36,956 nt of DNA from Acidobacteriaceae bacterium (GTDB taxonomy: Bacteria > Acidobacteriota > Terriglobia > Terriglobales > Acidobacteriaceae), in NCBI GenBank assembly GCA_030037635.1, contig JASHQH010000095.1:1-36956 (forward strand). The letters run 5' to 3'. This document shows, one piece after another, positions 1,044 to 11,287 of the stretch. The notes under the pieces were generated by a model that was given only the letters and a program-made list of their open reading frames with translations, was not told the origin of the DNA and ran no database searches. How positions within the stretch are numbered: position 1 is the first letter of the stretch; every line of letters starts with the position of its first letter. The position numbers and the translations under genes were made by a program.

Positions 1044-1123
1044 TCAATCAAAATCATCCATCTTTTACGATTGACTTGGCTCTATGTAATGCTATATCAT
1101 CCAAATTCAATCAAAAACGTCCA
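1044..1123 (+). promoter_or_regulatory. candidate DeoR operator array upstream of BMC operon
   Basis: Two 17-nt direct repeats start at 1044 and 1107 and match at 15 of 17 positions (TCAATCAAAATCATCCA and TCAATCAAAAACGTCCA). Their spacing of 63 bp equals six helical turns. The first repeat is also half of an inverted repeat: TCAATC at 1044-1049 and GATTGA at 1069-1074. A third partial copy, ATCATCCA, lies at 1096-1103. The array straddles the likely promoter, as expected for a repressor that binds several sites or loops DNA. The DeoR-family gene at the end of this operon is the obvious candidate ligand, but that link is inferred. Confidence 0.6.
1071..1098 (+). promoter_or_regulatory. sigma70-like promoter for the BMC operon
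   Basis: A TTGACT -35 box (1071-1076), a 16-nt spacer and a TATATC -10 box (1093-1098) preceded by TG at -14/-15 give an extended -10 promoter. The -35 box overlaps the GATTGA half site and the -10 box overlaps ATCATCCA, so bound repressor would block polymerase. Transcription would start near 1105. Confidence 0.55.
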
Positions 1124-1158
1124 CAAATGACAGTCTTCATTCACGTACCAGGGTGGTT

Positions 1159-1911: not shown

Positions 1912-2202
1912 ATGAAACAAGCGCTTGGGATGGTTGAGACAAAAGGCCTGGTCGCGTTGTTTGAGGCGACTGACGCCATGCTGAAATCGGCAAGTGTGAC
2001 TTTCGCGGGCTGGCAAACCGTGGGAGCGGGGCTGGTGACCGCATTCGTGGAAGGAGACGTGGCGGCGGTGAAGGCCGCAACGGACGCGGGCGCGGAAGCG
2101 GCGTCGCGGATTGGCGAGGTGGTAAGTGTGCAAGTCATCTCGCGGCCTCACGACGAGCTTCCGTCGTTTGTGCAGAACAGCAAAGCGGCGGCGAAGAAGT
2201 AA
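1912..2202 (+). CDS. BMC-H shell hexamer protein 1
   Basis: Single-domain shell protein of 96 residues (Pfam BMC fold) forming hexameric tiles of the microcompartment facets. It shows the canonical opening [20 protein letters not shown], the pore-loop region TVGAG near residue 41, and VQVISRPHDELP at the end, followed by a Lys/Ala-rich tail. An in-frame TTG at 1882 would add ten residues not seen in the family. ATG 1912 is chosen because AGGAGAGG ends 5 nt upstream. Closely related in sequence to BMC-H3. Confidence 0.95.
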   Translation: MKQALGMVETKGLVALFEATDAMLKSASVTFAGWQTVGAGLVTAFVEGDVAAVKAATDAGAEAASRIGEVVSVQVISRPHDELPSFVQNSKAAAKK

Positions 2203-2352
2203 AGGGTGGCTCTTAGCTTTTGGTCAGGCAACGCTGCAACGGGCGTTGGTAAAGCACCAGCGTTTCACGGAGATGGCAAATCGGGCAAATGCAGCACGAC
2301 GGAGCTAATAGCGAAAAGCTAATGGCTAATCGCTGCAATTCGAGGAGACGAA
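2203..2352 (+). repeat. 150-nt spacer with inverted repeat and heptamer repeats between BMC-H1 and BMC-H2
   Basis: No credible gene. TTAGCTTTT at 2213-2221 is an exact inverted copy of AAAAGCTAA at 2314-2322, so the spacer could fold back on itself in the mRNA. The right arm lies in a run of 7-nt units: AGCTAAT (2303), AGCGAAA (2310), AGCTAAT (2317), GGCTAAT (2324), CGCTGCA (2331). This is the longest internal gap in the operon and lies just before the BMC-H2 ribosome binding site. Confidence 0.6.
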
Positions 2353-2622
2353 ATGAGTCAAGCGATCGGGTTGATTGAGACCAGAGGGATGGTTGGGCTG
2401 GTGGAAGCGAGCGACGCGATGGTGAAAGCGGCCAGCGTGGAATTGGTGAAGACGGTGCCTATCGGCGGCGGCTACGTGACCGCGATTGTGCGCGGCGACG
2501 TGGGCTCAGTGCGTGCGGCGGTGGATGCGGGTGCGACAGCGGCCAAGGTGGTGGGCGAGTTGGTGTCGTCGCACGTGATTCCGCGGCCCCACGACTCGCT
2601 CGTGGAGCAGATGTTGAAGTAG
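2353..2622 (+). CDS. BMC-H shell hexamer protein 2
   Basis: Shell protein of 89 residues. It opens [19 protein letters not shown] and ends [18 protein letters not shown], as in other BMC-H proteins. It differs from its two paralogs in the middle: it lacks their aromatic AGW segment and has PIGGGYVT at the pore, a Gly-rich loop that in known hexamers lines a small central pore. A strong GAGGAGACGAA ribosome binding site precedes ATG 2353. Divergence at the pore suggests different metabolite selectivity from BMC-H1 and H3, which is inference. Confidence 0.95.
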
Positions 2623-2723
2623 GACGAAGCCCAACTGTCTTAAAAGGGCACGGTTTCGGCCGTGCGGCTGTCGGCTTCAAAATTCGGCGGGCTTTGGCCC
2701 CTGAGGGAATTCGGAGACGGTAC

Positions 2724-2996
2724 ATGGCGAATGAAGCAGTGGGAATGATTGAGACCAAGGGGCTGGTGGCCCTGGTGCAGGCGACTGACGCGATGCTGAA
2801 AGCGGCCAGCGTGAAGTATGCGGGCTGGAGCAAGGTGGGCAGCGGTCTGTGCTCGGTCTATGTGACCGGCGACGTGGGCAGCGTGCGCGCGGCAGTAGAC
2901 GCGGGGGCGGCGGCGGCGCGCGCAGCCGGCGAAGTGCAAAGCGTGCACGTGATCGCCCGTCCCCACGATACGCTGGGAACCGTGTTGCCGAAATAA
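2724..2996 (+). CDS. BMC-H shell hexamer protein 3
   Basis: Shell protein of 90 residues, opening [19 protein letters not shown] and ending [17 protein letters not shown]. The pore region reads WSKVGSGL. It is more like BMC-H1 than BMC-H2, sharing the YAGW/FAGW segment, so H1 and H3 look like a duplication flanking H2. An upstream in-frame ATG at 2694 would add ten residues absent from the family. ATG 2724 is used because GGAGACGG lies just before it. Confidence 0.95.
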
Positions 2997-3043
2997 GGCG
3001 GCGTGTCGATTGATGAGCGCTGCGGCGCAAAGAGGGAGCCGGC

Positions 3044-3340
3044 ATGTTCATAGCGAAAGTCATTGGCAACGTGGTCTCCACGCAGAAAATTGAAAAGTTC
3101 CGCGGCATGAAGCTGCTGCTGATCCAGCCCTACATCAACAAGGAAGGCAAGCTGGAGATTTCCGGCAGTTCCGTGGTGGCTGTGGACAGCGTGGGAGCCG
3201 GTGCGGGTGAGTGCGTGCTGTTTACGCAAGGCAGCTCCGCACGCCTCACACCCACAACCAAGGATGCGCCCGTCGACGCAGTGATCGTTGGGATCGTGGA
3301 CACCATTGAAGTAGGCGGCGCGATGGTCGCGAAGCCCTAG
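3044..3340 (+). CDS. BMC-P shell vertex protein 1 (EutN/CcmL family)
   Basis: Protein of 98 residues forming pentamers that cap the vertices of the microcompartment. Family features are MFIAKVIGNVVSTQK at the N-terminus, a GMKLLLIQP strand, the AVDSVGAGAGECVLFTQGSS loop and DAVIVGIVDTIEV at the end. It follows BMC-H3 after 47 nt and has AGAGGGAG upstream. It is the first of three BMC-P genes, the other two lying after the aldehyde dehydrogenase. Confidence 0.95.
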   Translation: MFIAKVIGNVVSTQKIEKFRGMKLLLIQPYINKEGKLEISGSSVVAVDSVGAGAGECVLFTQGSSARLTPTTKDAPVDAVIVGIVDTIEVGGAMVAKP

Positions 3341-3362
3341 AGCGGTTTCGGGAGTTTTCGAG

Positions 3363-4822
3363 ATGCAGGCACAACAGCAAGTGTCGCCGCAGATCATCGC
3401 GGAGATTGCCAGGGAAGTGGTGGCGCGCCTGCGCGTGCAGATGCAGGCCGCGCCTGCTGCGAGAGCAGCACCTCCGGCCCGCACCACGAGCGCGCGTGAC
3501 GGCGTGTTCGCCACCGTAGACGAGGCTGTAAGCGCTGCGTTCGAGACGCAGAAAAAGATTGCGGCCATGAGCCTGGCCGAGCGCGGACGCCTGACGGACA
3601 TTATTGTGCGCATCTGCAACGACCGGCGGGAAGAGCTGGGAAAGATGGAGCTTGACGAGACCAAGGTCGGCCGGCTCGATCACAAAATTTTGAAACTGAC
3701 GAACATGCGCTTCGTGCTGGGCGTGGACGCCATGCGCAGCGATGCACGCAGCGACCGCTCCGGTTTGTGCATCATCGAGCGCGCGCCGTGGGGCGTGATC
3801 GGCATGATGCTTCCCGTCACGCATTCGGTGCCTACGATGGCTTCGAATGCGATCAACATTCTGGCCGCGGGCAACACCGCTGTCTTCGGGCCGCATCCTT
3901 CAGGCGCCAAAGTGGCGCAGTACGCGCTGCAGGTGTGGAATCGCGAGTTTGAGCGCGAGCTGGGCGTAACAAATGTTCTGACCACCATCACCGAGCCCAG
4001 CATCGAAGCCGCCGACCAGATCTTCAACCATCCCAAGGTTGCGCTGTTGACGGTTACGGGCGGCTCGGCGGTGGTGAAGGCTGCAGCGCAGTCAGGCAAG
4101 CGCGTCATTGCCGGCGGCCCGGGCAATCCCCCGGTGGTGGTGGACGAGACGGCGGACCTGGATCGGGCGGCGCGCTGCATCATCGAAGGCGCGGCCTTCG
4201 ACAACAATTTGCTGTGCATCGGCGAGAAAGAAGTCTTTGTGGTGGCTTCAGTGGCAGAGGCGTTTATCGCGGCCATGAAGCGAGCCGGCGCATATCAACT
4301 GGATGCGGCAGCCATCGATCGGCTGACCAAGGCTGCGTTCACGTTTGAAGGCGGCGGAGGCGGCTGCGCCCGCGCGCATGTGAAGAAGGATCTGGTGGGC
4401 AAAGACATAGCCGTGCTTGCCAACGCTGCCGGCGTGCAGGCGCCGCCGGGAACCGATCTGCTATTTGGTGAGACCGAGGAGAACCATCCCTTCGTCGTGG
4501 AGGAGCAGATGATGCCGTTCATTCCTGTGGTGCGCGTGAGAGACGTGGATGCGGCAATTGCCGCCGCGGTGAAGGCTGAGCACGGATACCGGCACACGGC
4601 CATCATTCACACGCAAAATGTCGACACCGCGACGAGCATGGCGCGCGCCATGAACACCACGCTGTTTATTCAAAACGCAGCATCGCCCGCATCGTTGGGG
4701 TGGGCGGGCCGGGATATTTCAGCCACACTGTGGCCACGCCGACAGGTGAGGGCATCACCACCCCGATGACATTCACGCGTGAGCGGCAGATGGTGATTGG
4801 GAATGCGCTAAGAATCATTTAA
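3363..4822 (+). CDS. CoA-acylating aldehyde dehydrogenase (PduP-like), apparent frameshift near 3' end
   Basis: Oxidises an aldehyde (probably lactaldehyde) to its acyl-CoA with NAD+ in the shell lumen. Residues 6-25 form an amphipathic encapsulation-type helix (VSPQIIAEIAREVVARLRV) joined by an Ala/Pro linker to the catalytic domain. The catalytic Cys is Cys285 in DNNLLCIGEKEV; cofactor-loop and Gly-rich FEGGGGGCARA segments are present. As written, the frame ends at 4769 with an unrelated tail. The expected family C-terminus (GGPGYFSHTVATPTGEG, then TFTRERQMV) is encoded from about 4700 in the -1 frame and stops at 4820-4822. Adding one G to the run at 4697-4700 restores a 486-residue protein. 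This is a real mutation or a sequencing error; programmed shifting is less likely. Confidence 0.88.
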
Positions 4823-4868
4823 AGGCAGGGATTAGGGATTGGAAAAACGAGGGACGGACTGAAGGACC

Positions 4869-5156
4869 ATGTTTTTGGCGAGGATTGAAGGCACGGCGGT
4901 GGCGACAGTGAAGCATCCTTCGCTGGATGCGTGCCGGTTTCTTGTCGCGCGGCGCATCGAGCGCGACGGAAGCGTGGCTGAGGAGCCGAACGTGGTCGTG
5001 GATTGGCTGGGCGCCGCGCGGGGCAACACGGTGATGATCTCGACCGACGGCGATATTGCGCGCGAGAGATTCGGAAACAACACGCCGGCGCGCATGGTGG
5101 TGGTAGGGATCGTCGACGCCGTGCAGACGCCCAAAGCATCGAGGAGCGCCGCATGA
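4869..5156 (+). CDS. BMC-P shell vertex protein 2 (EutN/CcmL family)
   Basis: Vertex pentamer protein of 95 residues. It begins MFLARIEGTAVATVKHPSL and has the VVDWLGAARGNTVMISTDGD loop and ARMVVVGIVDAV final strand of the family. Its last four bases overlap the start of BMC-P3 (ATGA at 5153-5156), so the two pentamer proteins are probably translationally coupled and made in fixed ratio. The start lies 46 nt beyond the frame-corrected end of the aldehyde dehydrogenase. Confidence 0.93.
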   Translation: MFLARIEGTAVATVKHPSLDACRFLVARRIERDGSVAEEPNVVVDWLGAARGNTVMISTDGDIARERFGNNTPARMVVVGIVDAVQTPKASRSAA

Positions 5157-5455
5157 GACTGGGCATCGTTCGCGGGCACTTAACACTGACTCCGGCGGTG
5201 GAGTCGTACCACTCGAGGACGTTTGCCATTCTGGAACCGGTGACGATGCAGAATCTGCGCGCGGGGAACGGCAAGGGCGGAGGCAAGGCGCTGATCGCTG
5301 TGGACGAATTGGGCGCGGCGACGGGACAGATGGTTGCGTTTACCGAAGGGCGCGAGGCGTCGAATCCGTTCTGGCCTACGCCGGTGCCCGTGGATGCGTA
5401 CCTGGCGCTGATCGTGGACAGGATTGAGGTAACGCAAGGGCTGGATGGGATCTGA
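5153..5455 (+). CDS. BMC-P shell vertex protein 3 (EutN/CcmL family)
   Basis: Vertex pentamer protein of 100 residues: MRLGIVRGHLTLTPAVESYH, then an AVDELGAATGQMVAFTEGRE loop and YLALIVDRIEVTQ at the end. The loop between strands carries NPFWPTPVPVDAYL, longer than in the two paralogs. The start is fixed by the ATGA overlap with BMC-P2 and by GAGGAG 7 nt upstream, which lies within the preceding gene. Confidence 0.93.
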   Translation: MRLGIVRGHLTLTPAVESYHSRTFAILEPVTMQNLRAGNGKGGGKALIAVDELGAATGQMVAFTEGREASNPFWPTPVPVDAYLALIVDRIEVTQGLDGI

Positions 5456-5464
5456 GGTGCGGCA

Positions 5465-6574
5465 TTGAGGAACGCGGGGAAAAGCATCGATCTTGCAGGC
5501 CGCAGGCTGCTGGCGATGCGCGATGCGCAGGACGCGTTGGCGGCTGGCGCCACGAGCATTGTGGCCGCCGCAAATTGCGTGGTAACGCCCTCGGCCCGCG
5601 ATTTCCTGCAGCAGCACGGCATCGAGCTGGTGATGAGCGGCCGGGAAACGGGAGCCAGGACTAATGCCAATCCGGCTGCGGACGCAAGCGCGCATGAAGG
5701 CCGCACGCCGAATGCGCGCCTGTATTCCACACCCGAAGCCGAAGCCATCAAGAAGGAAATCTGCACTGTGGGCCGCAAGCTATGGTTGCGGCAGTTTGTC
5801 GACGGTAACGGCGGCAATATTACTTATCGCATTGGGCCAAACGAAGTTCTTTGCACTCCGACACTGGTGAGCAAATACGATCTGACGCCGGAGGATATCT
5901 GTCTTACCGATCTCGAAGGCAACCAGATCGCCGGCCCCAAGCCGCGTACCAGCGAGCTTCTGCTGCACCTGGAGATTTTCAAAGCGGTGCCCGAGGCGAG
6001 GGCGGCGGTGCATTGCCATCCGCCGCATGCCACGGCGTACGCAATCACCGGCCGTGTGCCGCCGAACATGATTATTCCGGAATTCGAGGTGTTTGTGGGC
6101 AAGGTTGCTATCTCGCCCTACGAAACACCGGGCACAAAGGCGTTTGCCGAGACGGTTCTGCCGTACGTGAAGGATCACAACACGGTGCTGCTGGCGAATC
6201 ACGGCATCATTTGCTGGGCCGACACCGTGACGCATGCCGAGTGGTACGCCGAGGTGCTTGAAACGTACTGCTGGACTCTGATGCTGGCTGCGCAGCTGGG
6301 TGTGCCCATCGCGCGCATTTCAGAAGAGCAAGGGACCGACCTGCTCGAGCTGAAGAAGAAGCTCGGCCTGCCGGATATTCGTTTTGATACATCGCGCATG
6401 AAGGAGTGCCAGTTATCCGATCTCGAAATTCCGAGTTCGATCGCGCTGGAGCCGACTCCATGCGATGGCTGCACCAACAATGACAACACCGTTGGCGCTC
6501 TGGGATCGCACGCGGATCTGGATGCGCTGGTCAGGTCAGTGACAGACGCGGTGATGGAAGCGATTGGGAAATAA
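5465..6574 (+). CDS. class II aldolase (fuculose/rhamnulose-phosphate type) with BMC-targeting extensions
   Basis: Zinc-dependent aldolase, likely cleaving a deoxyhexulose-1-phosphate to DHAP and lactaldehyde, which feeds the aldehyde dehydrogenase. The catalytic domain (about residues 90-310) shows GNGGNITYR, Glu164 in RTSELLLHLEIF, HCHPPHATA with His183 and His185, and His246 in LANHGIICW. The protein has 369 residues against roughly 210-270 for simple family members. An N-terminal domain of about 65 residues carries VVTPSARDFLQQHGIELV, a motif seen in other microcompartment-associated proteins. A C-terminal amphipathic helix (DLDALVRSVTDAVMEAIGK) after a Cys-containing linker resembles an encapsulation peptide. 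The start is TTG, 9 nt after the BMC-P3 stop, with GAGGTG overlapping that stop. Sugar specificity cannot be read from sequence. Confidence 0.88.
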   Translation: MRNAGKSIDLAGRRLLAMRDAQDALAAGATSIVAAANCVVTPSARDFLQQHGIELVMSGRETGARTNANPAADASAHEGRTPNARLYSTPEAEAIKKEICTVGRKLWLRQFVDGNGGNITYRIGPNEVLCTPTLVSKYDLTPEDICLTDLEGNQIAGPKPRTSELLLHLEIFKAVPEARAAVHCHPPHATAYAITGRVPPNMIIPEFEVFVGKVAISPYETPGTKAFAETVLPYVKDHNTVLLANHGIICWADTVTHAEWYAEVLETYCWTLMLAAQLGVPIARISEEQGTDLLELKKKLGLPDIRFDTSRMKECQLSDLEIPSSIALEPTPCDGCTNNDNTVGALGSHADLDALVRSVTDAVMEAIGK

Positions 6575-6641: not shown

Positions 6642-7403
6642 ATGATGAAGGCAGCCGAACGGCAAATCAGAATCCGCCAGATGTTCGAGACCCGCGACTT
6701 CATCGACTCGGAGACACTTTGTCGCGAGCTGGAGGCGTCGGAGTCCAGCGTACGGCGCGATCTGGACGCCCTGGAAAACGAAGGTGTACTGAAGCGCGTG
6801 TACGGCGGTGCGGTGGGCGTGCAGCCGGCGCCCAATCGCGCCTTCGATTACGCGGCCGAGAGCGTACGCCTGAGCGGCGAAAAAGATCGCATCAGCAGAT
6901 TGACGGCGAGCCTGATCGAGGATGGGCAAACCGTGATTCTCGACGGCGGTTCCACGGTGGCTGCGGTGGCGCGCGAGTTGGCCGCAAAATCGCTGCACAT
7001 CGTCACCAACTCGCTGCCCATTGCCGAAAGCCTGGAGACGCTTCGCAACATCGAGCTGACGCTGACTGGCGGATATCTCGATCCGCGGCTGCGCGTGATG
7101 CTCGGCCCATTTTGCGAGCAGATGCTCGGCGCGATCCGCGCTGACACTGTGATCATGGGCATCGGCGGCATTACCGAGACCGGATTCAGCAACAACAACA
7201 CACTCGTAGTAGGCTCCGAGCAAAGAATGATCGAGGTTGCCAGCCGCGTCATCATCGTGGCCGACCACTCCAAGTTCGGACGCCGCGCCATGATCCCGGT
7301 GGCTCCGCTCAGCGCCGCGCACATCGTGGTATCTGATGCGGGGTTGAGCCCCGAGCACGCAGCTCTGCTGCGCCAAAGCGGCATTGAGGTTCTTCTGGCA
7401 TAA
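6642..7403 (+). CDS. DeoR-family transcriptional regulator of the BMC operon
   Basis: DNA-binding repressor of 253 residues. The N-terminal winged helix-turn-helix (residues about 5-58) has the family pattern RQIRIRQMFETRDFIDSETL, then SSVRRDLDALENEGVLKRVY. The C-terminal sugar-phosphate sensor domain shows VILDGGSTV and ADTVIMGIGGI segments. It is the last gene of the microcompartment operon, so it probably represses its own operon and responds to a phosphorylated intermediate of the same pathway. ATG 6642 is used; 6645 is an equal alternative. An upstream in-frame TTG at 6564 would overlap the aldolase and add a non-conserved Gly/Arg-rich stretch. Confidence 0.9.
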   Translation: MMKAAERQIRIRQMFETRDFIDSETLCRELEASESSVRRDLDALENEGVLKRVYGGAVGVQPAPNRAFDYAAESVRLSGEKDRISRLTASLIEDGQTVILDGGSTVAAVARELAAKSLHIVTNSLPIAESLETLRNIELTLTGGYLDPRLRVMLGPFCEQMLGAIRADTVIMGIGGITETGFSNNNTLVVGSEQRMIEVASRVIIVADHSKFGRRAMIPVAPLSAAHIVVSDAGLSPEHAALLRQSGIEVLLA

Positions 7404-8872: not shown

Positions 8873-11287
8873 TTATTGCGGTGCAGGAAGATTCCCTGTC
8901 ACCTCCGCCGGCGGGACGGCGGCCAGAGTTTCGGTTTCGGCGGGAAGCGCGGCGGCAGGCAGCGGGCGCTCCAGCGCCAGCGTCAGCACCTCGTCCATGT
9001 TGTCGACAAAGTGCAGTTTCATGGCGTTCTTGATGTTGTCGGGCAGCTCGGAGAGATCCTTCTCGTTGGCGCGGGGCAGAATGGTCTCAAAGATGCCGGC
9101 GCGCAGAGCCGCCAGCAGTTTTTCTTTCAAGCCCCCGATGGCCAGCACCTTGCCCCGCAGCGTAATCTCGCCCGTCATGGCGATGTCGCGGCGAACAGGA
9201 ATTTTGGCCAATGCGCTGGCCAGCGCTGTCGCCATGGTGATGCCCGCCGATGGACCGTCCTTGGGGATCGCGCCCTCGGGCACGTGCAGGTGCAGGTCGA
9301 CGTTGCGATAAAACTCGCGTGTAAGACCCAACGCCTGCGCTTTGCTGCGGATGTAGGCTAGCGCCGCCTGTGCCGACTCCTGCATCACGTCGCCCAGCTG
9401 GCCCGTGACGGTCATCTTTCCCTTGCCGTCGAGCACTTGCACCTCGGTCGTGAGGATGCTGCCGCCCACTTCGGTCCACGCCAAGCCCGTCACCAGGCCC
9501 ACCTCGCTCTTTTCGTGCGCCTCAGAATCGCGGAACTTGGGCACGCCCAGAAACTCGCCGATGTTCTGCGCGGTGACCTCTTCTTTGTGCTTGGAGCCGC
9601 TCTTGACTACCTTGCGCGCCACCTTGCGGCACACGTTGCCGATTTCGCGCTCCAGGTTACGCACGCCCGCCTCGCGCGTGTAGAAGCGGATGATCTCAAG
9701 CACGGCATCGTCAGTAAAGACGATATTCTTGTCGCTTAGGCCGGTCTGCTCGCGCTGCTTCTTGATCAGATACTGGCGCGCGATCTCCAGCTTTTCCGGC
9801 TCGGTGTAGCCCTGCAGGCGGAGAATCTCCATGCGATCCTGCAGCGCGGGCGGAATCGTGTGCAGCACGTTGGCCGTGGCCACGAACAGCACCTGCGAAA
9901 GATCGTAATCGACGTCGAGATAGTGATCCTGGAAGGTTACGTTCTGTTCGGGGTCGAGCACCTCGAGCAGCGCTGACGCCGGATCGCCGCGGAAATCGGA
10001 CGAAATCTTGTCGACCTCATCGAGCAGGAACACCGGATTCTTGGTGCCCGCGCGCTTCATGTGCTGGATGATCTGGCCGGGCATGGCGCCGATATAGGTG
10101 CGGCGATGGCCGCGAATCTCGGCTTCGTCGCGCACGCCGCCCAACGACAGGCGCACGAATTTGCGTCCCGTTGCCTTGGCGATGGACATGCCCAGCGAAG
10201 TTTTGCCCACGCCGGGAGGGCCCACGAAGCAGAGAATCGAACCCTTCGGGTTCTTTACCAGCTGGCGCACGGCAAGGAATTCCAGGATGCGCTCCTTGAT
10301 CTTTTCCAGGCCGTAGTGGTCGGTGTTCAGAACCTTCTCGGCATAATCGATGGAACGGGTTTCTTTGGAACGCTTGCGCCAAGGCACGGCCAGCAGCCAG
10401 TCGATGTAATTCCGGCTGACCGTCGATTCGGCCGACATGGGCGGCATGGCCTCGAGCTTCTTGAGCTCCTGAATGCACTTGTCGAGCACGTCCTTAGGCA
10501 TGCCCGCGCCCTCGATCTTCTTGCGCAGCTCGTCAAACTCGCTCTTTTCGCCGCGGCCGAGCTCTTTCTGGATGGCCTTGATCTTCTCGTTGAGGTAGTA
10601 CTCTTTCTGCGCGCGCTCCATCTGGCGCTTTACACGCGACTGAATATTGCGATCCAGGTCGAGTTTCTCGATCTCGATGTCGAGCACGTCGGCCAGCCGG
10701 GCCAGTCGTGCGGCCGGATCGAAAATGGCCAGCAGCTCCTGCTTCTCCTCGATGCCGATCTGCAAGTTCGAGGCGATTACATCGGAAAGCTTGGCAGGCT
10801 CGTCCAGGCGGACGGTGGCGATGATGGTTTCGTAATTAAGCGACTGTTGTAGCTTGACGTAATTCTCAAACAGCGTGGTCACGCGCTGCATCAGTTGCTC
10901 GACAGCAGGGCTCATCTCGAACTCGCGCTTGCCCATGCGCACTGTGGCTACAAAAAAGCCGTCACGATCGGAGACATCGACGGACTTGGCGCGCTCTACG
11001 CCTTCGACCAGGACCTTGATGTTGCCATCGGGCATCTTCACGCTCTGAACGATGTTGCAGATGCAGCCCACCTGATAGATGTCTTTGGCGCGCGGTTCGT
11101 CGATCGAGGCATCATGCTGCGTGGCGAGAAAAATCTTGCGGTCGCCATTGAGAGCTTCCTCCAGGGCGCGCACGCTCGACTCGCGGCCCACCACAAAGGG
11201 CGTCATCATGTAGGGGAAGATGACCATGTCGCGGATGGGCATCATGGGCAGCTTGCGCGGCTCGTTCTTCTCGCGGGTCGTGGTCAT
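8873..11287 (-). CDS. lon: Lon ATP-dependent protease
   Basis: Homo-oligomeric AAA+ serine protease that degrades misfolded and some regulatory proteins in the cytoplasm. The 804-residue protein has the N-terminal substrate domain ([15 protein letters not shown] start), the AAA+ module with Walker [12 protein letters not shown] and Walker [12 protein letters not shown], and the protease domain with the Ser680-Lys723 dyad in [10 protein letters not shown] and [11 protein letters not shown] Pro/Ala tail ends the protein. A GTG at 11314 would add nine residues. ATG 11287 is preferred because GGTGA lies just upstream. It is downstream of tig-clpP-clpX on the same strand, the classical bacterial order. 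Confidence 0.97.

Follow-up and report, generated by a model that had tools for sequence, protein, structure and literature searches.

The window, a stretch of 36,956 nucleotides, makes up the whole of contig C159 in an acidobacterial MAG of 4.77 Mb and carries the operon of a bacterial microcompartment (BMC) for sugar degradation. In this genome the operon is now headed by pduL (1159–1833, + strand), a phosphate propanoyltransferase matching PF06130 (9.1e-64) and scoring above the cut-off of the NCBIfam phosphate propanoyltransferase model. The remaining operon (1912–6574, + strand) comprises three BMC-H genes, a BMC-P, an aldehyde dehydrogenase, two more BMC-P and a class II aldolase, all assigned by profile matches except the third BMC-P (5156–5455, + strand), which was assigned by conservation in orthologues. 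The gene for a DeoR-family regulator, the predicted repressor, follows at 6642–7403 (+ strand; PF00455 8.8e-44, PF08220 4.9e-10). The aldehyde dehydrogenase gene (3363–4769) differs from four relatives by a 1-bp deletion near its 3′ end (4715–4725) and has an unrelated tail, which could reflect real decay or a sequencing error.

PduL orthologues were identified in 16 of 99 sampled genomes (including that of the window), 15 of them in the genus, and at 45 loci in a named collection, where the named relatives are Acidobacteriaceae and Terracidiphilus MAGs. The usual gene order is bmcT-pduS divergent from ackA-pduL-BMC-H (three copies)-BMC-P-aldehyde dehydrogenase-BMC-P-BMC-P-aldolase-deoR. The window retains a divergent pduS/RnfC-like remnant of 37 codons (894–1004, − strand), corresponding to residues 11–47 at 57% identity (E 4.4e-5). 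No close homologue of the BMC ackA was found in the genome, the best match having 34% identity. The sequence ATGACAGTCTTCATTCA at 1127–1145 (+ strand), where the relatives have ATGAAGATCTTGATTCC, is probably the decayed start of ackA, as judged from position and letters compared by eye. Together with the loss of ackA and of the PduT-type shell gene, the pduS remnant marks a decayed divergent side of the locus in this genome. A CruF-like carotenoid gene (51–863, − strand) adjoins the operon and was not found beside it in the loci of the relatives.

PVM and PVM-like loci that include a DeoR regulator are known, and Candidatus Solibacter usitatus is listed among them (Axen et al., 2014, PMC4207490; Sutter et al., 2021, PMC8217296). 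The window resembles these in combining a class II aldolase, an acylating aldehyde dehydrogenase, PduL, shell proteins and a DeoR-family regulator, and differs in having lost ackA, the PduT-type BMC gene and most of pduS. Acetate kinase, absent from this locus and present in those of the relatives, is a PVM ancillary gene and hence not strictly defining (Axen et al., 2014, PMC4207490). ACI-type loci share the class II aldolase, the three BMC-P and the acidobacterial host, but have a hydroxyacid dehydrogenase and place the aldehyde dehydrogenase on a satellite locus (PMC8217296), while here the aldehyde dehydrogenase lies within the operon.

Direct half-sites around the operon promoter

As the preliminary description had stated, two 17-nt repeats, TCAATCAAAATCATCCA (1044–1060) and TCAATCAAAAACGTCCA (1107–1123), start 63 bp apart, and a third copy, ATCATCCA (1096–1103), lies over the −10 hexamer. 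The two 17-mers are 88% identical. Their pair did not hold as the unit, since the conserved element consists of three 7-mers at 10-bp spacing on the downstream side of the −10. The repeat unit is a 7-base half-site, TCAWYCA, in direct orientation with a 10-bp period, and half-sites at 1044, 1054, 1097, 1107, 1117 (weak) and 1137 surround the promoter TTGACT-18-TATCAT. This promoter is sigma-70-like and lies between and under the repeats. Its conserved −35 region, GATTGACT (1069–1076, + strand), contains the hexamer TTGACT (1071–1076) and is followed, after an 18-bp spacer, by the −10 hexamer TATCAT (1095–1100, + strand), found at the same place in most relatives of class 1. This class (C1) is that of the orthologues of the window's DeoR, 20 of the 42 rows of the DeoR tree. 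The word GATTGA at 1069–1074 is the reverse complement of TCAATC, as described earlier, but its reading as an inverted operator arm was ruled out: GATTGACT is retained in class-2 and distant loci and, because it is present whatever the operator class, is on sequence grounds promoter rather than operator.

Half-sites were scored with a matrix built on 14 orthologous class-1 promoters, the window being left out, with a maximum of 12.0. All of those described here are on the + strand. In the upstream pair, U1 (TCAATCA, 1044–1050) scored 11.6 and is strong in this genome only, and U2 (TCATCCA, 1054–1060), 10 bp further on, scored 8.0; the relatives carry at the U2 place a weak, position-conserved CCTCA-N5-YGYCA. 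Downstream, D1 (TCATCCA, 1097–1103) overlaps the −10 and scored 8.0, with TCATTCA at its position in most class-1 orthologues. D2 (TCAATCA, 1107–1113) lies 10 bp past D1, scored 11.6 and is identical in most class-1 orthologues. D3 (ACGTCCA, 1117–1123) is a degenerate third copy that scored 1.0, the same place scoring 7.4–12.0 in the orthologues. An extra half-site, TCATTCA at 1137–1143, reached 12.0 on the 10-bp grid of D1–D3; it was noticed post hoc and may be fortuitous.

The five strong half-sites between 1030 and 1160 are on the + strand in every case, and at least five on one strand occurred in 0.07% of local-composition simulations of this interval. Two tandem 10-bp pairs occurred in none of 20,000 such simulations, and a scan of both strands found no tandem 10-bp pair in the remainder of the window. 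Across the 4.77-Mb genome, TCAWYCA-N3-TCAWYCA has two exact matches, and both belong to this array, so that a search for a wider regulon with the exact pair found no further site in the genome. Matches with one mismatch are present elsewhere in the genome, some of which may be due to chance.

Conservation of the array in related acidobacteria

The PVM-like operons of the relatives contain three half-sites of the form TCA-N-TCA, extending from the −10 box as far as the beginning of ackA, which headed the ancestral operon. In the 14 class-1 loci used for the matrix, the sequence of the divergent region as far as the start of ackA is TTGACTCTG...TATCGTATCATTCATTTTCAATCAAGATCATTCA. The preliminary description had proposed looking for the same words before orthologous pduL genes and had taken a lack of conservation upstream of the orthologous operons as evidence against its reading. 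Such conservation was found, as three half-sites at 10 bp, with the difference that the array stands before ackA; it is not directly upstream of pduL in the relatives because ackA precedes pduL there, and it now precedes pduL in the window because the BMC ackA has been lost from the locus.

In a set of 35 upstream regions, 64 TCA pairs had a spacing of 10 bp where 5.2 were expected (z 27.6), and a further peak appeared at 20 bp (28 pairs, 4.0 expected). Counted from the −35, the half-site grid falls at +30/+40/+50 in class 1 and at +40/+50/+60 in class 2 and Granulicella. More distant acidobacteria often have two or three NNTCA words at 10 bp with different flanking letters, and a clear 10-bp pair was not found in the upstream regions of loci L059 and L061. 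The triple, allowing up to 3 mismatches, matched only BMC promoters in 5 of 12 genomes. About thirty related acidobacteria retain an array of the same kind.

The strong upstream copy is peculiar to this genome, the pair scoring 19.6 against at most 10.4 in class-1 relatives. It is possible, although we consider it less than probable, that DeoR acts on the downstream array only and that 1044–1060 is functionless drift in the former ribosome-binding site and leader of pduS. At the place of the upstream pair class-1 relatives score from −3 to 10.4, close to the range of the null, whose 95% quantile is 6.2. Read on the pduS strand, the conserved CCTCA gives TGAGG, a Shine-Dalgarno word 11–13 nt before the pduS start that is likely to be the pduS ribosome-binding site in class-1 relatives; in this genome pduS is a remnant. 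Drift is countered by the score of 19.6, which has a chance of 0.0003 per 42-bp segment, and by the arrangement of the pair, which is direct, has the 10-bp period and is separated by 53 bp from its downstream counterparts. Upstream TCA pairs at 10 bp are moreover enriched across the relatives (12 against 1.2), and in locus L052 an insertion of 11 bp shifted the pair by about one turn. This insertion of about 11 bp lies upstream of the −35, near the upstream pair, and keeps the helical phase; locus L041 has a deletion of about 11 bp, likewise upstream of the −35 and near the upstream pair.

Association of the array with deoR

Half-sites of the form (G/A)TTCA occupy the corresponding place, on the same 10-bp grid, in five loci (L040, L041, L043, L044 and L047). 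The DeoR of this class 2, known for four of them (for L040 through genome G035), is 47–48% identical to that of the window and forms its own clade (support 97), outside class 1 and most of the distant BMC DeoRs. Its recognition helix reads SRATVRRDL against SESSVRRDL in class 1, with R replacing E. In L040, L043, L044 and L047 the exchanged deoR gene keeps the same position in the operon or one close to it; in L044 it is inverted, and for L040 (G035) it is located on a different contig. The BMC enzymes of these loci group among class-1 loci. Operator class matched DeoR class at 18 of the 18 loci where both are known, which represents one well supported exchange, or at most two, and hence few independent events for a test of co-change over the tree. 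Shell genes have been lost in G050 and G047, where array, aldolase and deoR are retained. G050 has five half-sites at 10 bp before aldolase-deoR (L088, contig C138, about 9986–10032, − strand), and G047 has three half-sites and short ackA fragments, followed by aldolase-deoR (L090, contig C335, 7622–7782). In G046 a related class-2 deoR is preceded by half-sites of the class-2 type.

The array thus very probably serves as operator for the DeoR-family repressor that the operon encodes, because it is kept with deoR and its half-sites differ where deoR has been replaced. The earlier suggestion of repression by the operon's DeoR protein is partly supported, in that the array tracks the deoR gene across loci, from which we infer the link between protein and DNA. 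PhoB/OmpR-type response regulators also use direct repeats of 10–11 bp, and a regulator of this or another direct-repeat type could bind the array while DeoR acts elsewhere. This is improbable given that the array stays with deoR and aldolase after the loss of every shell gene and changes in sequence where deoR was exchanged, and that a conserved response regulator was not found in the operon, either in the annotation of the window or at orthologous loci. Local duplication of the 17-mers without regulatory meaning, which their 88% identity might suggest, is ruled out almost completely, as the place of each copy aligns to relatives in its own flanks and neither is newly inserted.

Proposed regulation and relation to known operators

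Binding, repression and release by a phosphorylated sugar are here inferred from knowledge of the DeoR family. In the absence of a sugar-derived inducer, neighbouring DeoR subunits would line up along a single face of the helix, covering the −10 and the start point and so shutting off transcription of the microcompartment operon. The ligand that releases DeoR would be a phosphorylated sugar, probably derived from L-fucose or L-rhamnose and bound in the DeoRC domain. The upstream pair, 53 bp or five turns away and now strong here, may strengthen repression from the other side of the promoter. A search of the PDB by sequence found only a ligand-domain structure for this DeoR family.

The history of the array can be outlined tentatively, at slightly less than an even chance. 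A distinct DeoR homologue may have taken the place of the repressor, with the operator rewritten one half-site after another at constant position, copy number and 10-bp period, while in the lineage of the window the loss of flanking genes may have freed sequence that gained the in-register half-sites at 1044, 1054 and 1137.

The E. coli DeoR, of the GlpR/AgaR/DeoR family, loops DNA between several operators around one promoter, and its operators are palindromic and far apart. The present array shares the protein family and the several operators around one promoter, but in place of distant palindromes it has direct repeats at a spacing of one turn. A parallel in repeat structure is RhaR, a DeoR-family regulator of deoxy-sugar catabolism for which two imperfect direct repeats with a 10–11 bp period are reported in four lineages, with a motif that varies between non-orthologous RhaR groups (Rodionova et al., 2013, PMC3870299). 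Repressors of the DeoR family are marked by sites that cover a promoter or 5′ leader (PMC8579813). The array shows the corresponding features: direct half-sites with a 10-bp period, a linked DeoR-family gene (PF08220, PF00455) and predicted sites that overlap the promoter and 5′ leader from the −10 to the start codon. The likeness to RhaR operators was judged on repeat architecture, and the array differs from them in its three, or up to five, half-sites, in belonging to a PVM-like BMC operon of Acidobacteria, and in the exchange of repressor inside one genus. No published description of this operator was found in a library of open-access papers.

As DeoR operators with direct repeats of 10–11 bp are already known, the array is best regarded as a well-supported predicted operator of a known kind. 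Its interest lies in a repressor and its operator apparently having been exchanged jointly, and in the number of sites, three to five, that the natural arrays contain. The pairing of two DeoR classes with two types of half-site in such arrays would provide a natural test set for how DeoR-family proteins read direct repeats, and the PVM-like microcompartments of Acidobacteria, known mostly from MAGs, gain a predicted operator and regulator for in vitro tests.
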